This document shows positions 9,412 to 57,278 of a stretch of 64,000 nt of DNA, one piece after another; positions within the stretch are counted from its first letter, which is position 1; the number at the start of each line of letters is the position of its first letter. Origin of the DNA: Aneurinibacillus soli (lineage in GTDB: Bacteria; Bacillota; Bacilli; Aneurinibacillales; Aneurinibacillaceae). The stretch lies in contig NZ_AP017312.1 of assembly GCF_002355375.1 (NCBI RefSeq), forward strand, positions 2,807,001-2,871,000, read 5' to 3'. The notes beneath the pieces were generated by a model, which did no database searches, was not told where the DNA came from, and saw only the letters and a program-made list of their open reading frames with translations. Position numbers and translations under genes: made by a program.

Positions 9412-9720
9412 TTACCGCACCCAGTTATGTACAATCGGATAACGGAAGGGGCGCTCTTCAATCGCATACCATATTCCTTTAAGCGGATAATAAAGCGCGA
9501 TAAGCCCTAGGATCGGCAGGAGCAAAAATCCAATCAGCACAAGCATAAGAATCGCGGCAATGCCCGCAGCAATCGTCATCATCACATGAAACAGCAATGC
9601 TTCCGTCGCCTTCTCTTTCACATAATCATCTTGTGTGAGTAGCATAAACAAAAGCGGTACAATAATCGGGGCAAAAAACGTACTTCCGTGAATAATAATA
9701 CAGGCAGGTTTTGCATTCAT
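9412..9720 (-). CDS. DUF4870 family membrane protein
   Basis: 102 residues from the ATG at 9720, with GGAGG 8 bases upstream. The N-terminus contains HGSTFFAPIIVPLLFMLL, followed by DDYVKEKATEALLFHVMMTI and two more hydrophobic stretches, giving three membrane helices. The motif of a short amphipathic segment followed by a helix containing the VKEKATEALLFH block is typical of DUF4870 (Tic20-like) proteins, small bacterial membrane proteins of unknown role. Monocistronic, with its own terminator. Confidence 0.75.
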   Translation of the reverse strand: MNAKPACIIIHGSTFFAPIIVPLLFMLLTQDDYVKEKATEALLFHVMMTIAAGIAAILMLVLIGFLLLPILGLIALYYPLKGIWYAIEERPFRYPIVHNWVR

Positions 9721-28244: not shown

Positions 28245-30464
28245 CTATTCAATCAAATTCCACTCAGAATCACCCACGAGTTTTTCCAACTCATTAGCAG
28301 GCACAGGTTTACTAAACAAATACCCCTGTATGTTTGTACAGCCGTAGTGAAACATATAGCGCAACTGTGCTTCTGTTTCTACCCCTTCTGCCAACACATG
28401 CAATCCAAGCGATTGTGCCAGATAGATAATCATACGAACAATCTTTTCGCTTCCCTCATGCTGACCAATTTGCCGAACAAATGACTGATCAATTTTCAGT
28501 GTGTCAATCGGATAATTTTGCAAGTAGCTAAGCGAGGAGTACCCCGTACCAAAATCGTCTATTGACATACGAATTCCGATCTTACTTAATTCCTCAAAAA
28601 CTTTCATTACGTGATCGCTATGATTCATCGCGACATTCTCCGTAATTTCAAGTCCTAAATATTGCGGAGAAAGCCCTGTTTTTTGCAAAACTTTTTCGAC
28701 AGTCGAAACAAACCCACTGCGAATAAAATGAGGCGATGAAATATTGACATGCACAGGGATCGGCTCCCGCCCCTGCTCCTGCCATCGTTTACTTTGCGAG
28801 CATGCCGTATACAGCACCTGTTCTTCTACAGCAAATATAACGCCTGTCTCTTCCAAGATCGGGATAAATACAGCAGGGGAAATCATCCCTTTTTTTGGGT
28901 GATTCCATCGAAGAAGCGCTTCTGCGCCTACAATCTTGCGCGAACTGGCATCAACTTGTGGCTGATAGTATACAAGAAACTCTTGATTCAGTACAGCTTT
29001 TCGAACGCTGTTAAACAACTCAAGATTTTCACTGTTCTCGCTGCTCATTGCAGACGAATAAAACGCAAACTGATTCAGGCCTTTACGTTTCGCCCGATAC
29101 ATGGCTACATCTGCAAACTGAATTAACATGTCCAGATTTTCAGAATCATATGGAGACATACTAATCCCTACGGATGAAGTCAAATAGCACTCTTCTTCAT
29201 TGAGCTGAAACGGGCGCTGGAAGCAATCTAAGATTTTTACTACGACCTTTTCTACTTCCGCAATAAATTGAAACGGCAAACATACAATAAACTCATCCCC
29301 ACCATAGCGAGCAATCTGGCAAGATGCATCCAAATTATGTGTAAGACGTCTGGCAACCTCTTGCAGAATCTCATCACCTTTTGCATGGCCATACGTATCA
29401 TTAATGATTTTAAAACGATCCAGATCGATAAACAATACAGCTATTTTCTTTTTATGTACAAGAACTTCTTTGCCTAATTCCTCTAGTGCATAATTCCGAT
29501 TCAATAATCCCGTAACCATATCTCGATACGCAAGCTCATTAATTCTTTTCGTGTATGCGTGAAATTCTAACGCAACGGCTGCAACTTTTGCCACCTCTTC
29601 TAACAGCTCGATTTCTTCCGGAAGTGGCTTTCGTGGTTTAGAGAAATAAACAGCAAATGTTCCCAGTATCTCCTTACTATTATGTGCACGTATCAGAAAA
29701 GACCAACAAGCCTCCAATCCGCTCTCCCGTGCAATATCCCAAAAGTCCCGCCACAATTCACTTTCGGAAATCCTGTCTACAATCACATCCTGATTGTAAT
29801 AAACTGCTGTCCCACACGAGCCTACATTTGGACCAATTTCAATCCCATCAATGGCTTCATTATAGAAAGAAGGGAGACCTTGAGCTTCTCCTGTATATAA
29901 CCTTCTCTCCTCGGATGAATATAAAAGAATGGAGACCTTGGCTTTCTCAAGAAGCACGGTTTCGAGAAGCTTACACAAATGGAGTAAAATTGAATGAATG
30001 TCTTCTCCTTCATATATTTTTTTTAGAGTCTGATTTAGAATCACAAGCTTCTGATGCGTTTGTTTTCGATGCGTGATATCATGTTGTACACCGACAAAAT
30101 ATATAAGTTTGTGTTCTTCACTAAAAATTGGGCTAATAAATATCTCATTCCAGAACGCCGTTCCGTCCTTTCGATAATTCAGAATCTCAACAGCAACGGG
30201 CTTTTCTGCCTCAATGGCTTCTCTAATTTTTTTTCTGTCATCTGGATTGGTCTCATCTCCCTGCAGAAATCTACAATTTTCCCCCAGCACCTCTTCTTTC
30301 GTGTAGCCTGTATTTGTCGTAAATACTTCATTTACATAAATAATAGGATTATCGTTTTGGTGCGGGTCTGTAATCAGAACGGATGAAGTAGTATGTTCGG
30401 AGAAATTTTTTATTACGTCCAGAAATCCCGCCGTCTTTATTCCTCTAAACAGGTTCATGGCCAT
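28245..30464 (-). CDS. LOV-GAF-GGDEF-EAL blue-light-responsive c-di-GMP enzyme
   Basis: 739 residues, cytoplasmic. Residues ~15-135 are a LOV-type PAS: GENCRFLQG at 61-69 is the canonical flavin motif with the photo-adduct Cys64, and YRKDGTAFWNEIFISPI and YFVGVQHDIT are conserved flavin-side strands. A GAF domain spans ~150-300. GGDEF domain: YGGDEFIVCLP intact, so a diguanylate cyclase is possible. EAL domain: GAEALLRWNHPKKG, ENVAMN and DDFGTGYSSLSYL are intact, so phosphodiesterase activity is possible. ATG at 30464 has AAGGAAGG 8 bases before. Light should alter c-di-GMP synthesis or breakdown; net direction is not predictable. Confidence 0.9.
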   Translation of the reverse strand: MAMNLFRGIKTAGFLDVIKNFSEHTTSSVLITDPHQNDNPIIYVNEVFTTNTGYTKEEVLGENCRFLQGDETNPDDRKKIREAIEAEKPVAVEILNYRKDGTAFWNEIFISPIFSEEHKLIYFVGVQHDITHRKQTHQKLVILNQTLKKIYEGEDIHSILLHLCKLLETVLLEKAKVSILLYSSEERRLYTGEAQGLPSFYNEAIDGIEIGPNVGSCGTAVYYNQDVIVDRISESELWRDFWDIARESGLEACWSFLIRAHNSKEILGTFAVYFSKPRKPLPEEIELLEEVAKVAAVALEFHAYTKRINELAYRDMVTGLLNRNYALEELGKEVLVHKKKIAVLFIDLDRFKIINDTYGHAKGDEILQEVARRLTHNLDASCQIARYGGDEFIVCLPFQFIAEVEKVVVKILDCFQRPFQLNEEECYLTSSVGISMSPYDSENLDMLIQFADVAMYRAKRKGLNQFAFYSSAMSSENSENLELFNSVRKAVLNQEFLVYYQPQVDASSRKIVGAEALLRWNHPKKGMISPAVFIPILEETGVIFAVEEQVLYTACSQSKRWQEQGREPIPVHVNISSPHFIRSGFVSTVEKVLQKTGLSPQYLGLEITENVAMNHSDHVMKVFEELSKIGIRMSIDDFGTGYSSLSYLQNYPIDTLKIDQSFVRQIGQHEGSEKIVRMIIYLAQSLGLHVLAEGVETEAQLRYMFHYGCTNIQGYLFSKPVPANELEKLVGDSEWNLIE

Positions 30465-50669: not shown

Positions 50670-50680
50670 ATGCAAACCAA

Positions 50681-50728
50681 AAAAGAACCGGAAAGCCCTT
50701 GATAATACAGGGCTTTCCGGTTCTTTTT
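50681..50728. terminator. Bidirectional terminator
   Basis: AAAAGAACCGGAAAGCCCT / AGGGCTTTCCGGTTCTTTTT, perfect 19-bp stem with 9-base loop, between the convergent importer and phosphopantetheinyl transferase genes. Confidence 0.92.
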
Positions 50729-50734
50729 ATTATG

Positions 50735-51394
50735 CTACTCTCTTATCCAGTATCGTTCCATCTCCACATCCGTCATGTACGTAACACGCTCTGGCAAATC
50801 ACCCTCACTTACGCATAAACAAGCAATATGTGCTTCATCAATACAGTAATGACGAATACTCCAGCTATTCTTTGCTTCTATACTAAGAAAGCATGCAGGG
50901 GTTAACAGCCCTGTTCCTATTGCTTTGCCAATCGCTTCTTTTCGTGTCCATTTTTCATAAAAGAATGTCCATCTATTCGCTTCTTTTTGCTGCAATAGCG
51001 AGGCATATTCTTCTGAAGTCAGACACTCAAAGGCAACCTTACAATCAAGTGGTTGTATTTCCTCTATATCGACTCCGATTCTTCCTTTTTCGGTCATGGC
51101 ACATATAATCCATTTTCCTGCATGACTAAGATTAAAGTCCCCTTGCCAGCCTGAAGATAACGCCACATAAGGGCGCCCTCTTTTATCTCTTCTATACCAC
51201 TTCGCAACCTCTATGTATGGATAGTAATGCTGGAACATGTAATATACGGTTAAGATCCCAAGCAGTGCTCGTTGCCTATCTTCTATTCTTTTATAGTTTA
51301 GAATACGCTGCTGTTCTTCAGCCGACAACACGGAAAGAAAGCACGCCTGTTTACGATCAGAGATGTAACCCGTATTTCGTACAGCTATTATCAT
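50735..51394 (-). CDS. Sfp-type 4'-phosphopantetheinyl transferase
   Basis: 219 residues. FNLSHAGKWIICAMT, then GRIGVDIEEIQ (Mg-binding Asp and Glu) and FYEKWTRKEAIGKAIGTGL (catalytic KEA) are the Sfp signatures; length is typical. It overlaps the NRPS stop by 4 bases, so it should be made together with the synthetase and load its carrier domain with phosphopantetheine from CoA. A PPTase inside a one-module cluster suggests the system carries its own activation step. Confidence 0.93.
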   Translation of the reverse strand: MIIAVRNTGYISDRKQACFLSVLSAEEQQRILNYKRIEDRQRALLGILTVYYMFQHYYPYIEVAKWYRRDKRGRPYVALSSGWQGDFNLSHAGKWIICAMTEKGRIGVDIEEIQPLDCKVAFECLTSEEYASLLQQKEANRWTFFYEKWTRKEAIGKAIGTGLLTPACFLSIEAKNSWSIRHYCIDEAHIACLCVSEGDLPERVTYMTDVEMERYWIRE

Positions 51395-54300
51395 CTTGCT
51401 GTTACATGCTCTCTAGCAGGTGGGAAATACCCTATTTTAATGGCATAGGTTACTAGTGCCTGTACCAAATCATGATCTGGCTTCGGACAATCAATTCCTG
51501 CTCTCATTAGAATCTCTTGCGCTTCGTTGCATACATACCGATATTCAGAATCATGTGCACCATCCCCTTCAAGCTGGGCTATTGCTAACTCTAGCGCTTC
51601 GGCTTTTTCCCCTGGATCATCAACTTGGAACAAAGCCTCCCGATATCTTGTAGGTTCTAGTAGTGTAATCTCATATCCTAGCGACTGTAATTGTGTAATG
51701 AAGTCTGTATAGTGGATCTGCTCACTATTGCATATATGGAATGTTCTTCCTTCTATTTCTGGTTGACTAGCTAGATTTACAATCGCTCGGCTCGCATAAT
51801 CTACTGGTGTAATGTCGACGTACCAATCAGCAGCAGGAGCAATCCCCAATAGCAGCATTGCTTTTATCATCCGATAAAATGCATTGCTTTCAATATTACG
51901 CTGGAACTTTCCAGACTGTGTACGACCAACCAGATTGCCTACACGGTAAATCGTAGCCGGAATGCCTTTCATAGCTGTACGTACGATATTCTCTGCGCGA
52001 AGTTTGCTATTGGAGTATTCATTTTCTAGTACTACATCGTATGTGAAATCACCATTTTTCACAAAGTCATTCCATTGTCCACTCGCTGCTAAGTCTTCCG
52101 GCACACTTACAGTTGAGATGTGATGAAAATGAGCATCCTGCTTATTGCGGATTATGTCTAGCAAGGACGATGTCCCTCTTACATTTACTTTTTCAAACTG
52201 GGATGAATCTCCAAAATGACGAACATCCGCTGCACAATGAATGATCGCATCAATTTTTTCAGACAAATGGTCACGTACATCAGGAGATATACCGAGATCC
52301 GGTTCACTTAAATCCCCTTCGACAATCACAATTCTGCTTTTGAAAGCTTCTAGATTGCTATCAGGAAAATAAAAGTGCACCGTATTCAAAAGACGCTGTT
52401 CAGGCGAACCTCCATCAGAAACACGAACAAGGCAATAAACGTTTGCTTTTGTTTCCTGCAAAAGCTCATGTACGATATGTGCACCAAGATAACCGGTTCC
52501 TCCCGTTACAAGCACATTCCGGGCTGTATTCCACTCCCGCTTCTTTGCTCCTTTTATGACAGGGGGTTCCGTTAACTCTTTGATCTGGCGTTCTTCGTTA
52601 GACAATGCATGCACCGGTTCTGACTCTCCTGCTCGCTCCACGTATTCTGCTAACGCAGCAATCGTGCGGCAACGGAAAAAATCTTGTATTTTTAGGGAAG
52701 GAAACTTCGGTTTTAACAAAACAAGAATGCTGATGATTTTTAGCGAATGTCCGCCAATATCAAAAAAGTCATCCGCAACCCCGATCTCCTCTACACCAAG
52801 AACTTTCTCCCATGCTTTGGCGATACACTTTTCTGTCTCACTCTTCGGTTTTTCCCTATTTTTTTGTATCAGCGTAATTTTATCTTTTCTGGTAACTAAT
52901 AGTTTCCGATCAATTTTACCCGTTGGAGCAATCGGCATATTCTCTAAATAAATGAACTGTTCGGGAACCATGTAACCTGGTAACGATTGAGCAAGAAAGT
53001 TCCGTATTTTCTTTTCGTCTAGTGGTTGCATACTTCCTGTACTGTAGTAGGTTACTAGTCGTTTATTTCCATCTTCTTCTGTTTTTGCAACAACAGCTAC
53101 ATGTTCAACATCCGCCTGTTTTGCAAATACGTCTTCAATCTCATCTATTTCAATCCGGTGACCGCGAATTTTCACCTGATTATCCTTGCGTCCTACATAC
53201 TCGATATTGCCGTCAGCTAGCAATCGTACAATATCCCCTGATTTGTACAAATATTTCCCTGAGCTATCAGAGAACAAGTGAGGCACAAAAGCCTCCGCTG
53301 TTTTATCCGGCTTATTCAAGTATTCTTTGGCTAAGCCCACTCCTCCAATATACAGCTCTCCCGGTACATGAATCGGACACAGCTGTCCATTTGGATCTAC
53401 GATATACGTTTCATAATTATCATAGGGCTTTCCGATTGGAATATAAACCTGATCGGATGGAACTTCTTCTTCGATGAGATAAATCGTCGTCCCTACCGTA
53501 CACTCCGTCGGCCCGTATGCATTAAAAACCTTACTACCCAGTCCAAAGCGTCGTTGCCATAGACGTACGGTTTCGCCGGTTAGCGCTTCACCGGCTACGA
53601 TAATTCTTTTGATTGTTTGCAGTTTACGGATACTTTTATCTTCCAGATAGGCTGCAATTTGTTTAAAGAACGCAGTCGGAAGTGCCAGCGCTCCTGTTGC
53701 CTTAACTCTCTCGGCAGCATTAGCAAATTCTTCGATCGCCATCCGCTCCACATTAGACAGCAAATGTAAGCGTGCACCCCAGAGCAAAGCGGAAAACGTT
53801 TCGGCAATTGAAGCATCAAAACTATACGAAGCAAATTGAAGAAAAACATCGTCTGGCATACATTCATACGGTCCCCGCAAGTATACGAGCAAATTTACTG
53901 CACCCCTATGAAGAATAACCGTTCCTTTAGGATGACCCGTAGAGCCGGACGTATAAATCATGTAGGCAGGATCTACTGCCTCTGGATAGATAGAAAAATG
54001 TATAGGATTATACGGGAGCAACGCTGCATCATCTACATAAAGTACCTGAGCGGTATGTCCATCAAAGCAACTACTCTCCTGCAGAATGTTTGTATATTGT
54101 GTTTTCGTTATGATAAAAGCGGCACGGCTATCCTCAATCATGTATTCGATACGCGCTAGCGGATATTCCGGATCAATGGGTACATATACCCCTCCCGCTT
54201 TCATAATTCCGAGTAGACCTACTACTGTTTCGAGACTTCGTTCCATAAATAAAGCAACAAAATCACCTTTTTTCAACCCATGATCACACAACATCTGAGC

Positions 54301-55137
54301 GACCTGATCAGATTTGTGATGTAATTCTTCATAAGTAAGCTGTCCTTTCTCCGAGGAAAGGGCGATACGGGCAGGGAATTTTTCGGCTGCTTCCACAAAC
54401 AGAGCAGGAAGGGTTTTATCAGCCGGAAACTCTCTTTTTGTATCATTCAGCATCTCATATAGATTACATTCTTCTTGACTCAAGATGTCAATTTTTCGAA
54501 AATGAGCAGACGGTTGAGCTGCTAGTGTTTCAAGAATATTTTGGTATTGTTCAATAAAACGATAGATGGTCTCCCGCTTAAATGCCTTGCTATTAAAGGT
54601 CACCTCTACCCCATAACCATTCGAAAGTGAATGAATGTTCCATATAATCGGTACCGACTGTTCTCTGCATGCATCCCCCATCGTAAAGATAGCGGGATAA
54701 TGACTCGCTTCAAAAGCACCGAGGAAAAAACGGTGGTCGATCGCTTCTGATAATCGAATTTTCACTTCCGTTAGCAGCTGCTCAAACGTCTCCATTCCCG
54801 CAACAGAAATCCGAAGAGGAAGAATTCTCATTTCTTCCTCTTCCCCCTCACAAAAAGAAGGAACACCTACCAAAATGTCTTCCTCATATGAAAGACGATA
54901 TATCCAAACCAGATACGCAGACAACATGATCACGTCTATTTCACGATTACTATTTTGACATAGAGTTCGTGCCTTCTGTATCCAAGGTCCAGTGATAGAA
55001 GCCTTTACTGATTCCTTTGCAGCATCGTGTAACGAATACCGTGAGAAATCCGATGGTATTTGAATAACAGGCAGTGGCTCAGCTAGCCTATCAAACCAGT
55101 ATCCTTCTGCTGCTTTTTCTTGTCTGTACTCTTCCAT
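51391..55137 (-). CDS. One-module NRPS: partial condensation, adenylation, carrier, reductase
   Basis: 1,248 residues. Residues ~1-215 match only the second half of a condensation domain: EGYWFDRLAEPLPVIQIPSD resembles the usual post-active-site part and no HHxxxDG is present. About 225-745 are an adenylation domain (LTYEEL, MIYTSGSTGHPKGT, FASYSFDASIAETF, NAYGPTECTVG, YKSGDIVRL, GRKDNQVKIRGHRIE, PTGKIDR). About 765-830 are the carrier with DDFFDIGGHSL. About 870-1240 are a thioester reductase: VLVTGGTGYLGAHIVHELL, then YSNSKLRAENIV as the YxxxK catalytic pair. The carrier-bound acyl group should leave as an aldehyde, or alcohol after a second reduction. Layout resembles Lys2-type amino acid reductases. 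Confidence 0.9.
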   Translation of the reverse strand: MEEYRQEKAAEGYWFDRLAEPLPVIQIPSDFSRYSLHDAAKESVKASITGPWIQKARTLCQNSNREIDVIMLSAYLVWIYRLSYEEDILVGVPSFCEGEEEEMRILPLRISVAGMETFEQLLTEVKIRLSEAIDHRFFLGAFEASHYPAIFTMGDACREQSVPIIWNIHSLSNGYGVEVTFNSKAFKRETIYRFIEQYQNILETLAAQPSAHFRKIDILSQEECNLYEMLNDTKREFPADKTLPALFVEAAEKFPARIALSSEKGQLTYEELHHKSDQVAQMLCDHGLKKGDFVALFMERSLETVVGLLGIMKAGGVYVPIDPEYPLARIEYMIEDSRAAFIITKTQYTNILQESSCFDGHTAQVLYVDDAALLPYNPIHFSIYPEAVDPAYMIYTSGSTGHPKGTVILHRGAVNLLVYLRGPYECMPDDVFLQFASYSFDASIAETFSALLWGARLHLLSNVERMAIEEFANAAERVKATGALALPTAFFKQIAAYLEDKSIRKLQTIKRIIVAGEALTGETVRLWQRRFGLGSKVFNAYGPTECTVGTTIYLIEEEVPSDQVYIPIGKPYDNYETYIVDPNGQLCPIHVPGELYIGGVGLAKEYLNKPDKTAEAFVPHLFSDSSGKYLYKSGDIVRLLADGNIEYVGRKDNQVKIRGHRIEIDEIEDVFAKQADVEHVAVVAKTEEDGNKRLVTYYSTGSMQPLDEKKIRNFLAQSLPGYMVPEQFIYLENMPIAPTGKIDRKLLVTRKDKITLIQKNREKPKSETEKCIAKAWEKVLGVEEIGVADDFFDIGGHSLKIISILVLLKPKFPSLKIQDFFRCRTIAALAEYVERAGESEPVHALSNEERQIKELTEPPVIKGAKKREWNTARNVLVTGGTGYLGAHIVHELLQETKANVYCLVRVSDGGSPEQRLLNTVHFYFPDSNLEAFKSRIVIVEGDLSEPDLGISPDVRDHLSEKIDAIIHCAADVRHFGDSSQFEKVNVRGTSSLLDIIRNKQDAHFHHISTVSVPEDLAASGQWNDFVKNGDFTYDVVLENEYSNSKLRAENIVRTAMKGIPATIYRVGNLVGRTQSGKFQRNIESNAFYRMIKAMLLLGIAPAADWYVDITPVDYASRAIVNLASQPEIEGRTFHICNSEQIHYTDFITQLQSLGYEITLLEPTRYREALFQVDDPGEKAEALELAIAQLEGDGAHDSEYRYVCNEAQEILMRAGIDCPKPDHDLVQALVTYAIKIGYFPPAREHVTAR

Positions 55138-55187: not shown

Positions 55188-56924
55188 TTATAAAGTGAAA
55201 CGTTCAATCGTTTCTTTCAGCTCATCCACTACCGTATCCAGCGATTCCGTTTCCCTTGCAATCTCTTGCATCGATGCTAATTGTCGTACTGACGATGAAG
55301 AAACAGAAGAAGTGTTTCCAGCGAATTCCTGAGAAATTCCTGTCATTGACTCCATGGATGCTGTCACTTGTTGCGAACTAGCAGCCATTTCCTCAGAGGT
55401 AGCAGATACTTCCTGGATTTGCGTATTAATACCCTGAACCGCTTCTAAAATGTATTCAAAAGCTTGTCCTGCCTTTTGGACCACTTCCATTCCTACATTT
55501 ACTTCTTTCACCACATGATCCATAGACGAAATGGAATGAGAGGTTCTTCCCTGAATTTCCTGTACGAGATTTGCAATTTGTTGTGCTGATTGTGTGGACT
55601 GTTCAGCCAGTTTTCGAACTTCATCTGCTACAACCGCAAATCCTTTCCCATGCTCACCCGCACGCGCAGCTTCAATTGCTGCATTAAGGGCCAGCAAGTT
55701 TGTTTGGGAAGAAATCCCGGTAATCATCTCCACGATTTTGCTAATTTCCTGAGAGTGTTCTCCTAGCGACCTTACATCAGAAACGGATTTGTCTACAGAG
55801 AGACTGATACTTCTCATCTGCTCAACCACTTTCTTCGTGGTGCTATTTCCTTCTTCCGCTTCCAAAGCCATTGTGTTCGAAACTTCAGAGATGCTACCTG
55901 AGGTTATCGCTACATGCTGAATTCCCTCTGAAAGCTCTTGAGTAGCTTGAGAACTGGCCATGACACTCCCTACCTGTATCTCCGTACTGCTTGCGATCTC
56001 CTGAATCGCAGCAGAGACTTGCTGATTCTCTTGAACGGTATTCTTAATTTCTGATGATAGCCTTGCTGACAAATGAGAAATACGAGAAGATACATCCGTT
56101 ACATTGTGAATAATCCCACGCAGATTTGTGAGCATGGCAGAAAAGCTTTTGCCTAACTCGCCAATCTCATCATTGCCTTGTACTTCCGTGATTTCGATAT
56201 TCAAATTTCCTGCAGCTATCATATGTGCTTTCTCTGAAAGAGAATGAATCGGTGCCATCATACGTCTGATGATAAAGTAAATGAGCAATCCGCAAATGAT
56301 TGTAAAAGGTAGCATCATGTATAAAATCGTACTAGCCTCTTTCCAAGCTTTCTGGGTGACTTGCGCGACATTATAATCCACTACATAAACGGCAATGACA
56401 TTGTTTTGTTCGTCCAAAACAGGCGCAATTCCCGTTTTAAATTGACCATACTGGTCTCCATATATATCGGTAGCCTGAATTTTCTTCTGCTCAAACGCAG
56501 CTTTCATTAAAGCAAGTAAGTCTGGTGAGAGACCTACTTCGTTAAGATTTTGATTATACGGAACGCCTAATTTTCGAAGACTTGAACTCATGGAAACATT
56601 AAAGAACTGCCCGTTTTTATAGGAAGCTAGATATAGATTGTCAATAATCGTAGAATGGCCCATGATTTCATCCATCTTTTTGGTTGCTTGCAGTACATCT
56701 GGATTTTTATCGTTTGGCTGTGCAACAACGGATCGTACTTGATCTAGATTTACTTCTTCGGCTAGAATCGCCGCCGTGTCATGTAATTGTTTGCTCATGC
56801 TGCTTAAGTTACTATTTTTAATCATAAAATATGTAGCAGTACTACTTAAAATCCCAAAAACTAATAGTATACCAAGAGATGCAATAATAATTTTCCAACT
56901 TGCTGAGTTTCTAATTCTTCTCAC
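55188..56924 (-). CDS. Methyl-accepting chemotaxis protein behind a c-di-GMP riboswitch
   Basis: 578 residues from a GTG at 56924 that follows GGAGGGG at 6 bases. Helix 1 ([20 protein letters not shown]), an extracellular Cache-like sensor with [20 protein letters not shown] and GVAPVL-type strands ([20 protein letters not shown]), helix 2 ([20 protein letters not shown]), HAMP ([20 protein letters not shown]) and a signalling tip at [20 protein letters not shown]. The NRPS gene starts 50 bases after its stop with no hairpin between. The upstream c-di-GMP-I riboswitch should control this gene and probably the two that follow. Ligand unknown. Confidence 0.92.
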
Positions 56925-57023
56925 TACGTACCCCTCCAACTAAATATGTTGCCTTATCTCTAGCAGCACCAACCGTCTAAAATTTTCTAGTCTATAGCTT
57001 TTAGACATTAGCTCCAAAAAAAC

Positions 57024-57075
57024 AAAAAAACAATCCCCAAAAACTGATTCACAATGCAAACAGGGATTGTTTTTA
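57024..57075 (-). terminator. Terminator of the c-di-GMP riboswitch expression platform
   Basis: Minus-strand stem AAAAACAATCCC / GGGGATTGTTTTT with a 27-base loop, then TTTTTTTG. It lies directly after the aptamer and ~100 bases before the chemoreceptor gene. Confidence 0.85.
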
Positions 57076-57155
57076 GCGCAACCTGGCAACCGTAGTTATA
57101 AAAACCGTAGGCCCATAGCTTTGCGTCCCATCTTTTCAGAAGGTTTGCCAACGTT
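57076..57155 (-). promoter_or_regulatory. c-di-GMP-I (GEMM) riboswitch aptamer
   Basis: On the minus strand the order is GTTGGCAAACC, a stem-loop TCT-GAAA-AGA, TGGGACGCAAAGC, TATGGGCCTACGG, and GGTTGCCAGGTTGCGC. The GGCAAACC, GAAA tetraloop, GGGACGCAAAGC and GGCCTA segments in this order are the core of the GEMM-I aptamer. The terminator follows directly, so c-di-GMP should change read-through into the chemoreceptor operon; ON or OFF cannot be told without folding. Confidence 0.92.
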
Positions 57156-57278
57156 ACATATGTTATATATGCTATATATGTTATATATTTACCATGGGAA
57201 ATGTTACACCTCTTGTACAATTTTTGCAATATAAGTCGTAATAAATAGTTCTTTATTCCTCCTATCTAGATACACAAT

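Follow-up and report, generated by a model that had tools for sequence, protein, structure and literature searches.

An apparent operon of Aneurinibacillus soli joins a single-module reductase synthetase to a chemoreceptor behind a c-di-GMP riboswitch, a gene pairing found across Bacilli

We analyzed a 64,000-nt stretch of the genome of Aneurinibacillus soli (contig NZ_AP017312.1, positions 2,807,001 to 2,871,000, hereafter the window), in which an earlier reading of the letters (the original prediction) had pointed to a gene for a non-ribosomal peptide synthetase (NRPS) with half a condensation (C) domain and a terminal reductase. This gene lies at the coordinates then given, 51391..55137, on the minus strand like all the features of the locus, and its frame, Pfam matches, and checked residues define an NRPS-like reductase of 1248 aa in which half a C domain precedes adenylation (A), carrier (T), and thioester reductase (R) domains. 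The gene directly upstream (55188..56924) encodes a chemoreceptor of the methyl-accepting chemotaxis protein (MCP) type, made of a transmembrane (TM) helix, an sCache-like sensor domain, a second TM helix, a HAMP domain, and an MCP signaling domain (PF00015, 168 bits; PF00672, 53 bits). The gene directly downstream (50735..51394) encodes an Sfp-type 4'-phosphopantetheinyl transferase (PPTase; PF01648, 58 bits; PF22624, 44 bits). The leader contains a cyclic di-GMP (c-di-GMP) riboswitch aptamer of class c-di-GMP-I at 57074..57159 (Rfam RF01051, 67.1 bits for a gathering threshold of 35, E 8.8e-12, full length 1-87/87), and a long terminator-like hairpin with a T-run, recognized by sequence at 50679..50728, closes the unit. 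Riboswitch, MCP, NRPS, and PPTase apparently form one operon. It had been overlooked by the original prediction and is the more interesting part of the locus.

Directly 3' of the aptamer, an intrinsic terminator hairpin (AAACAATCCC..GGGATTGTTTTTTT, 57020..57074), identified by sequence and present in the RNA fold, is the probable expression platform. A consensus scan missed it, its loop being longer than the scan permits, and the fold z-score of the control region is −1.07. The MCP Shine-Dalgarno sequence GGAGGGG and GTG start (56924) follow; the longest MCP frame opens at TTG 56939. The MCP and NRPS genes are separated by 50 bp, the NRPS start (ATG 55137) is preceded by its own Shine-Dalgarno-like AAAGGATG, and the PPTase gene overlaps the NRPS end by 4 bp. 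The genome, a single contig of 4.1 Mb, carries four c-di-GMP-I riboswitches in all. Another of these (G000:C1:145956-146043, minus strand) lies about 0.5 kb upstream of a same-strand MCP-domain match (144992-145432). Elsewhere in the window, the minus-strand frame 28245-30464 encodes a protein with a GENCRFLQ motif, which we take to be LOV-like; by eye it also has GGDEF/EAL-like parts and is a possible light-linked c-di-GMP enzyme.

The A domain (residues about 240-745, 52903..54420), the T domain (about 765-840, 52618..52845, with Ser798 in GGHSL), and the R domain (about 870-1240, 51418..52530, with GGTGYLG and a Thr/Tyr/Lys triad) are intact, in line with the original prediction. Pfam aligns AMP-binding at 248-607, AMP-binding_C at 666-741, PP-binding at 772-833, and NAD_binding_4 (PF07993, 193 bits) at 877-1119; the reductase also exceeds the TIGR01746 cut-off (226.8 vs. 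213.35). The catalytic residues are kept: Ser798 of the carrier, Asp441 and Lys741 of the A domain, and Thr1009/Tyr1041/Lys1045 of the reductase. A canonical C-A-T-R module is present as regards A, T, and R with their catalytic residues, and the two-lobed C domain with HHxxxDG is missing; by Pfam, the protein has the A-T-R order without a condensing C domain of minimal A-T-R NRPS-like reductases. The specificity pocket, in what we take to be GrsA numbering, is DAAAIAAVGK. The code DAALIAAVG previously read by eye was wrong at its fourth letter, which is A, but the hint of an aromatic substrate stands, and both the Asp and the Lys of an alpha-amino-acid pocket are present. Presumably six of the ten letters are shared with the GrsA Phe code, which makes an aromatic amino acid a fair guess, no more.

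The chemoreceptor is an MCP by its PF00015 and HAMP matches, both above cut-off, and by a sensor domain lying between TM helices. No Pfam ligand-binding family matched this sensor domain, which takes in residues about 35-205. Its structural model (pLDDT 87.8) finds its best Protein Data Bank (PDB) matches among PAS/Cache-like folds; its fold neighbors include the KinD, WalK, and CitA sensors and the amino-acid receptor Tlp3. We compared it by phmmer with the NRPS-linked receptors of other genera and with 28 of the 50 MCP-domain matches of its own genome, a set that includes the window MCP (L069). The linked receptors of Lysinibacillus matched at 1e-55 and those of Paenibacillus and Cohnella at 2e-12 to 1e-6. 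Among the other own-genome MCPs L080 alone matched (3.5e-8), ranking above the four weakest linked receptors.

Relatives of the NRPS were collected from the genome family of the window (11 genomes) and by a genome-contig search giving 34 loci, and 39 loci were read (L001 being that of the window; L011 and L032 seem to belong to a single species). Within the genome family, six of the 11 genomes matched and five, the own genome included, gave full-length matches of 54-100% identity. In all 39 loci the NRPS is closely preceded by a frame on its own strand. The gap to the first possible NRPS start is 12-131 bp in 37 of them and 340-345 bp in L043 and L064, where the NRPS frame is broken. When neighboring proteins were clustered, the MCP was the one family besides the NRPS found at every locus; the other flanks vary between genera. 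With 50 MCP-domain matches in the genome, an MCP neighbor would arise by chance in about one per cent of cases, by our estimate.

We extended the survey to class and phylum samples of 398 genomes each. NRPS profile matches were kept at E ≤ 1e-250, which excludes more remote A-T-R enzymes from the counts, and frames under 1400 aa were taken as single-module. A sensor-domain profile built from 17 MCPs adjoining these enzymes was then applied to the 398 Bacilli genomes searched with the NRPS profile. A sensor-family MCP lies on the same strand within 2.5 kb of 40 of the 43 single-module NRPSs (37 upstream, 3 downstream), in nine families (f1, f4, f5, f8, f23, f29, f33, f36, and f56); the exceptions are G168, G363, and the second copy in G163. 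None of the 12 multi-module NRPSs has such a neighbor, a result that concerns this sensor family only, as the profile derives from enzyme-linked MCPs. The sensor family occurs in 40 of the 42 genomes with the enzyme vs. 11 of the 356 others (Fisher p 2e-42, ignoring relatedness), and within the genus of the window G002, G004, and G005 lack both genes. In an outlying single-module lineage (L143, L144, and L151) an MCP adjoins too, on the other side. That synthetase and chemoreceptor go together across Bacilli is observed; product and ligand are inferred. The operon and this pairing, above the half-C oddity, are the real find, and a search of one open-access library, judged by titles and abstract openings, brought up no description of such a pair.

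MCPs of another kind neighbor four of eight multi-module contexts (L134, L135, L136, L141, L154, L161, L162, and L163). The two-module reductase NRPSs L134, L135, and L136 have a divergent MCP about 330-470 bp away, and that of L162 has one downstream on the same strand; in all four the N-terminal part of the MCP differs.

The other members of the operon are less constant. A PPTase homolog directly follows the NRPS in the window and in L009, L012, L054, L056, L131, L132, L133, L139, L145, L146, and L148. Rfam places a c-di-GMP-I riboswitch upstream of the unit in nine of 31 flanks (the window, L032, L131, L132, L133, L137, L138, L139, and L145). None was found in the f23 and f36 loci searched, nor in L140, L144, L147, L149, and L157 even at E 0.5, and one Rfam scan of L054, L041, and L001 returned no element at gathering (the window riboswitch comes from a separate Rfam search). 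L133 has a second c-di-GMP-I riboswitch near the MCP-NRPS unit on the opposite strand (9519-9609, plus). Long imperfect inverted repeats are visible by eye between MCP and NRPS at L054:7777-7910, L056:7837-7970, and in Cohnella (e.g., L041:7828-7946); L054 and L041 gave no Rfam match. In f23 genomes a T-box leader stands slightly downstream of the NRPS, ahead of a later gene (L140:9441-9718, L153:9425-9711).

A natural loss was met once. L137 and L138, of the same genus (code g73), share an upstream gene that is SpoIIE-like by eye. L137 has the order riboswitch-MCP-NRPS and L138 only riboswitch and NRPS, its MCP being absent without a tblastn trace. The L138 NRPS has Gly in place of the A-domain Asp and Cys in place of the reductase Tyr, and nine of 110 otherwise invariant columns are changed vs. 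zero to four in six other rows tested alike. MCP loss accompanied by enzyme decay is a single case.

As originally claimed, the N-terminus corresponds to half a C domain only. Pfam Condensation (PF00668) aligns along positions 189-327 of 456 alone, at residues 5-136, within a C-lobe that spans residues about 1-220 (54478..55137), and the profile search found no full C domain. HHxxxDG is absent from the whole frame, and, in a scripted reading, from the frames of all 39 loci. No missing half is supplied from upstream, where the chemoreceptor gene lies. Orthologs in several families of Bacilli begin at the same lobe boundary, Aneurinibacillus proteins opening with a YW..L helix and those of Paenibacillus and Cohnella just ahead of an LPVLQIPxDF motif. 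Because no locus has HHxxxDG and the start boundary is shared, the truncation is neither chance nor misassembly. A gene in decay, or an assembly error, is accordingly a very improbable explanation: half a domain is missing and the NRPS frames of three of the 39 loci (L040, L043, and L064, whose upstream MCPs remain open) are broken, but the catalytic residues are intact here and in nearly all relatives, a congener has the same start at 80% identity, and the genome is a single contig. The conserved start and catalytic residues led us to reject both versions of this explanation.

The structure prediction proposed for the half domain was run on residues 1-655 (AlphaFold2, mean pLDDT 89.1, pTM 0.88). 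The model fits C-A didomains over nearly the full length (Txo1 6oyf, TMq 0.90; also LgrA, EntF, and SrfA-C), and in it the C-lobe is folded and docked on the A domain at the usual C-lobe place, without an active site. It may well be a leftover of an AusA-like two-module ancestor, a scaffold beneath the A domain that can be dispensed with, since some lineages have lost it: in Lysinibacillus (L054 and L056) and L145 it is gone altogether and the checked A-T-R catalytic residues are kept. At L054 and L056 the NRPS frame has an unusual start, a well-placed ATG-ATT-GAA followed immediately by an in-frame TAA and then a TTG. Alternatively, the lobe may be functional and needed to activate the A domain, as reported for the ADA domain of fungal aminoadipate reductase. 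We judge this rather unlikely; it is compatible with the self-sensing proposed below. Folding and docking as in full modules speak for it, as does retention in most lineages. Yet the half-C is by far the least conserved part of the protein, with a mean pairwise identity of 0.23 and two of 215 columns invariant among 15 representatives, vs. 0.52 for A (90/506), 0.48 for T (11/76), and 0.50 for R (64/371), and the lineages that lack it retain the catalytic residues. As an oddity the half-C is genuine but modest; the protein is an A-T-R reductase that has kept one lobe as a scaffold. This suggests that a C-lobe can be retained beneath an A domain as a passive support before it is lost, a point of relevance to the engineering of NRPSs at the C-lobe boundary.

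The original prediction had named Lys2-type reductases as the closest arrangement. Lys2 and fungal L-aminoadipate reductase do share the order partial C domain-A-T-R, and the fungal enzyme carries an ADA domain, but Lys2 is a lysine biosynthesis enzyme and its membership is rejected by score (TIGR03443, 369.1 vs. a cut-off of 1030.1). The likeness to Lys2 is one of architecture. By sequence, the closest kin are AusA-type reductase NRPSs. AusA and AusB give the best NCBIfam scores of the NRPS and PPTase, far under cut-off (NF047350, 642.5 vs. 2500; AusB, 67.6 vs. 225 bits), and AusA likewise ends in a reductase and has a PPTase gene next door. AusA differs in having two modules, where the window protein has one, and a full C domain; we know of no MCP or riboswitch associated with it. 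In an unrooted tree of 39 A-T-R regions, 27 single-module rows form one clade (98/96), the nearest outsiders being the two-module AusA-like L134 and L135, then L141. The single-module L144 and L152 fall outside it (100/99), and a single clade of all 29 single-module rows is rejected (p-AU 1.1e-5). The simplest reading would be that module 1 and the N-lobe of the C domain were lost at least twice. The rows that lack the half-C (f4 and L145) fall within the clade, consistent with a later loss of the lobe.

Lacking a C-domain active site, the NRPS cannot condense in the usual way, as originally supposed, and its domains support the idea that a single acid is activated and probably reduced. Its most likely product is an amino aldehyde, then a pyrazine. 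By analogy with known A-T-R enzymes, the synthetase, primed by the Sfp-type PPTase as is usual in that family, would adenylate one alpha-amino acid, here probably aromatic, carry it as a thioester on the T domain, and release it by a two-electron, NAD(P)H-dependent reduction as an amino aldehyde. Two such aldehydes would condense spontaneously into a dihydropyrazine that becomes a pyrazine. ATRed of Xenorhabdus indica is reported to make a Phe-derived pyrazine via the amino aldehyde, and minimal A-T-R enzymes yield pyrazines (PMC7586950). A peptide aldehyde would be expected instead if a partner supplied condensation in trans, as in livipeptin, where a tRNA-utilizing enzyme is reported to work with a C-minus NRPS, a precedent for A-T-R enzymes with a separate peptide-bond former (PMC10548850). 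This is improbable here: neither a condensation or transferase gene nor a tRNA-dependent partner was found among the three operon genes or the nine neighbors scanned, and the conserved partners are the MCP and, in part, the PPTase only.

We propose that motile cells sense their own product through a synthetase-receptor pair under c-di-GMP control. The MCP, less surely, would bind the product or its precursor extracellularly, and the cell would thereby steer by a chemical that it makes itself; the riboswitch would couple the unit to c-di-GMP, which signals the switch from motile to sessile life. Such self-sensing is plausible because pyrazinones, namely DPO and AI-3, are known bacterial signals (PMC13220807). 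We consider it about an even chance that the three-gene operon serves to produce, and probably also to sense, a small molecule derived from an amino acid. Pocket codes vary by lineage (DAAAIAAVG in the genus of the window, DAWITAVV[AC] in most Paenibacillus and Cohnella, DPTTSGVVL in Lysinibacillus, others elsewhere), so that the products should differ. Given A-domain distance, pocket code and sensor-domain distance are correlated (partial r 0.27, permutation p 0.04) and pocket code and signaling-domain distance are not (−0.13, same test), for 18 of 19 representatives (L012, whose MCP is truncated in the locus, was dropped); as the permutations ignore relatedness, the correlation is only a hint. 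Tentatively, and short of an even chance, these pairs may constitute a Bacilli-wide class in which each lineage combines its own amino-acid-derived aldehyde or pyrazine, the product of a half-C-A-T-R or A-T-R enzyme, with a matched sCache chemoreceptor, the cells steering by this lineage-specific self-made signal under c-di-GMP gating in several lineages.

Several observations weigh against self-sensing. G363 and the second G163 copy have an enzyme with intact catalytic residues and no adjacent MCP. Rfam searches of Paenibacillus, Cohnella, and Lysinibacillus loci gave no riboswitch. The linked sensor domains as one exclusive clade were rejected, the tree requiring at least three changes of pair label. 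Thirty-two of 72 sensor-domain matches stand away from the enzyme, so the MCP family also works without it; 16 unlinked contexts have varied neighbors and no such enzyme adjoining (at L181 the MCP was not recovered by the open reading frame call). The usual ligands of Cache domains are amino acids or organic acids, so the one here could be the precursor. These points suit a different explanation, possible in our estimation without being probable, in which the amino aldehyde or pyrazine has another role (volatile, antimicrobial, or protease inhibitor), the MCP senses the amino acid precursor or an unrelated nutrient, and both are merely co-regulated in one c-di-GMP lifestyle program. The unlinked MCPs count in its favor, as do Cache domains of the same fold that bind amino acids (Tlp3 with isoleucine, among the fold matches), the further riboswitch 0.5 kb ahead of an MCP match, and the common occurrence of c-di-GMP riboswitches before motility genes. 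Co-regulation alone, however, leaves unexplained both the adjacency in nine families, several of them without a riboswitch, and the decay of the enzyme in the one case of a missing MCP.

Known ligands are far fewer than chemoreceptors, and to our knowledge most of the genetics behind amino-acid-derived pyrazines in Bacillales has yet to be assigned. The conserved gene pair names a candidate ligand and a candidate receptor together, both testable in one strain. Among known systems, ATRed and other minimal A-T-R enzymes share with the window enzyme the A-T-R order without a condensing C domain and, by its predicted chemistry, an amino aldehyde that dimerizes to a pyrazine (PMC7586950). Unlike in ATRed, a C-lobe here precedes the A domain, and the operon has genes for an MCP and a PPTase behind a c-di-GMP riboswitch; in a tree without ATRed, the window enzyme groups with AusA-like enzymes. 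Pockets that vary while the gene pair stays constant resemble quorum-sensing specificity groups. LuxI-LuxR, DPO-VqmA, and AI-3-QseC would offer likenesses in their small amino-acid-derived (pyrazinone) signals and, for LuxI-LuxR, in a synthase and receptor forming a unit (PMC13220807). In contrast with these three, the putative receptor here, known from gene linkage, is of the chemotaxis type and not a transcription factor or kinase. If it does sense the product, the pair would give Firmicutes a chemotactic equivalent of LuxI-LuxR, with a link to c-di-GMP in some lineages.

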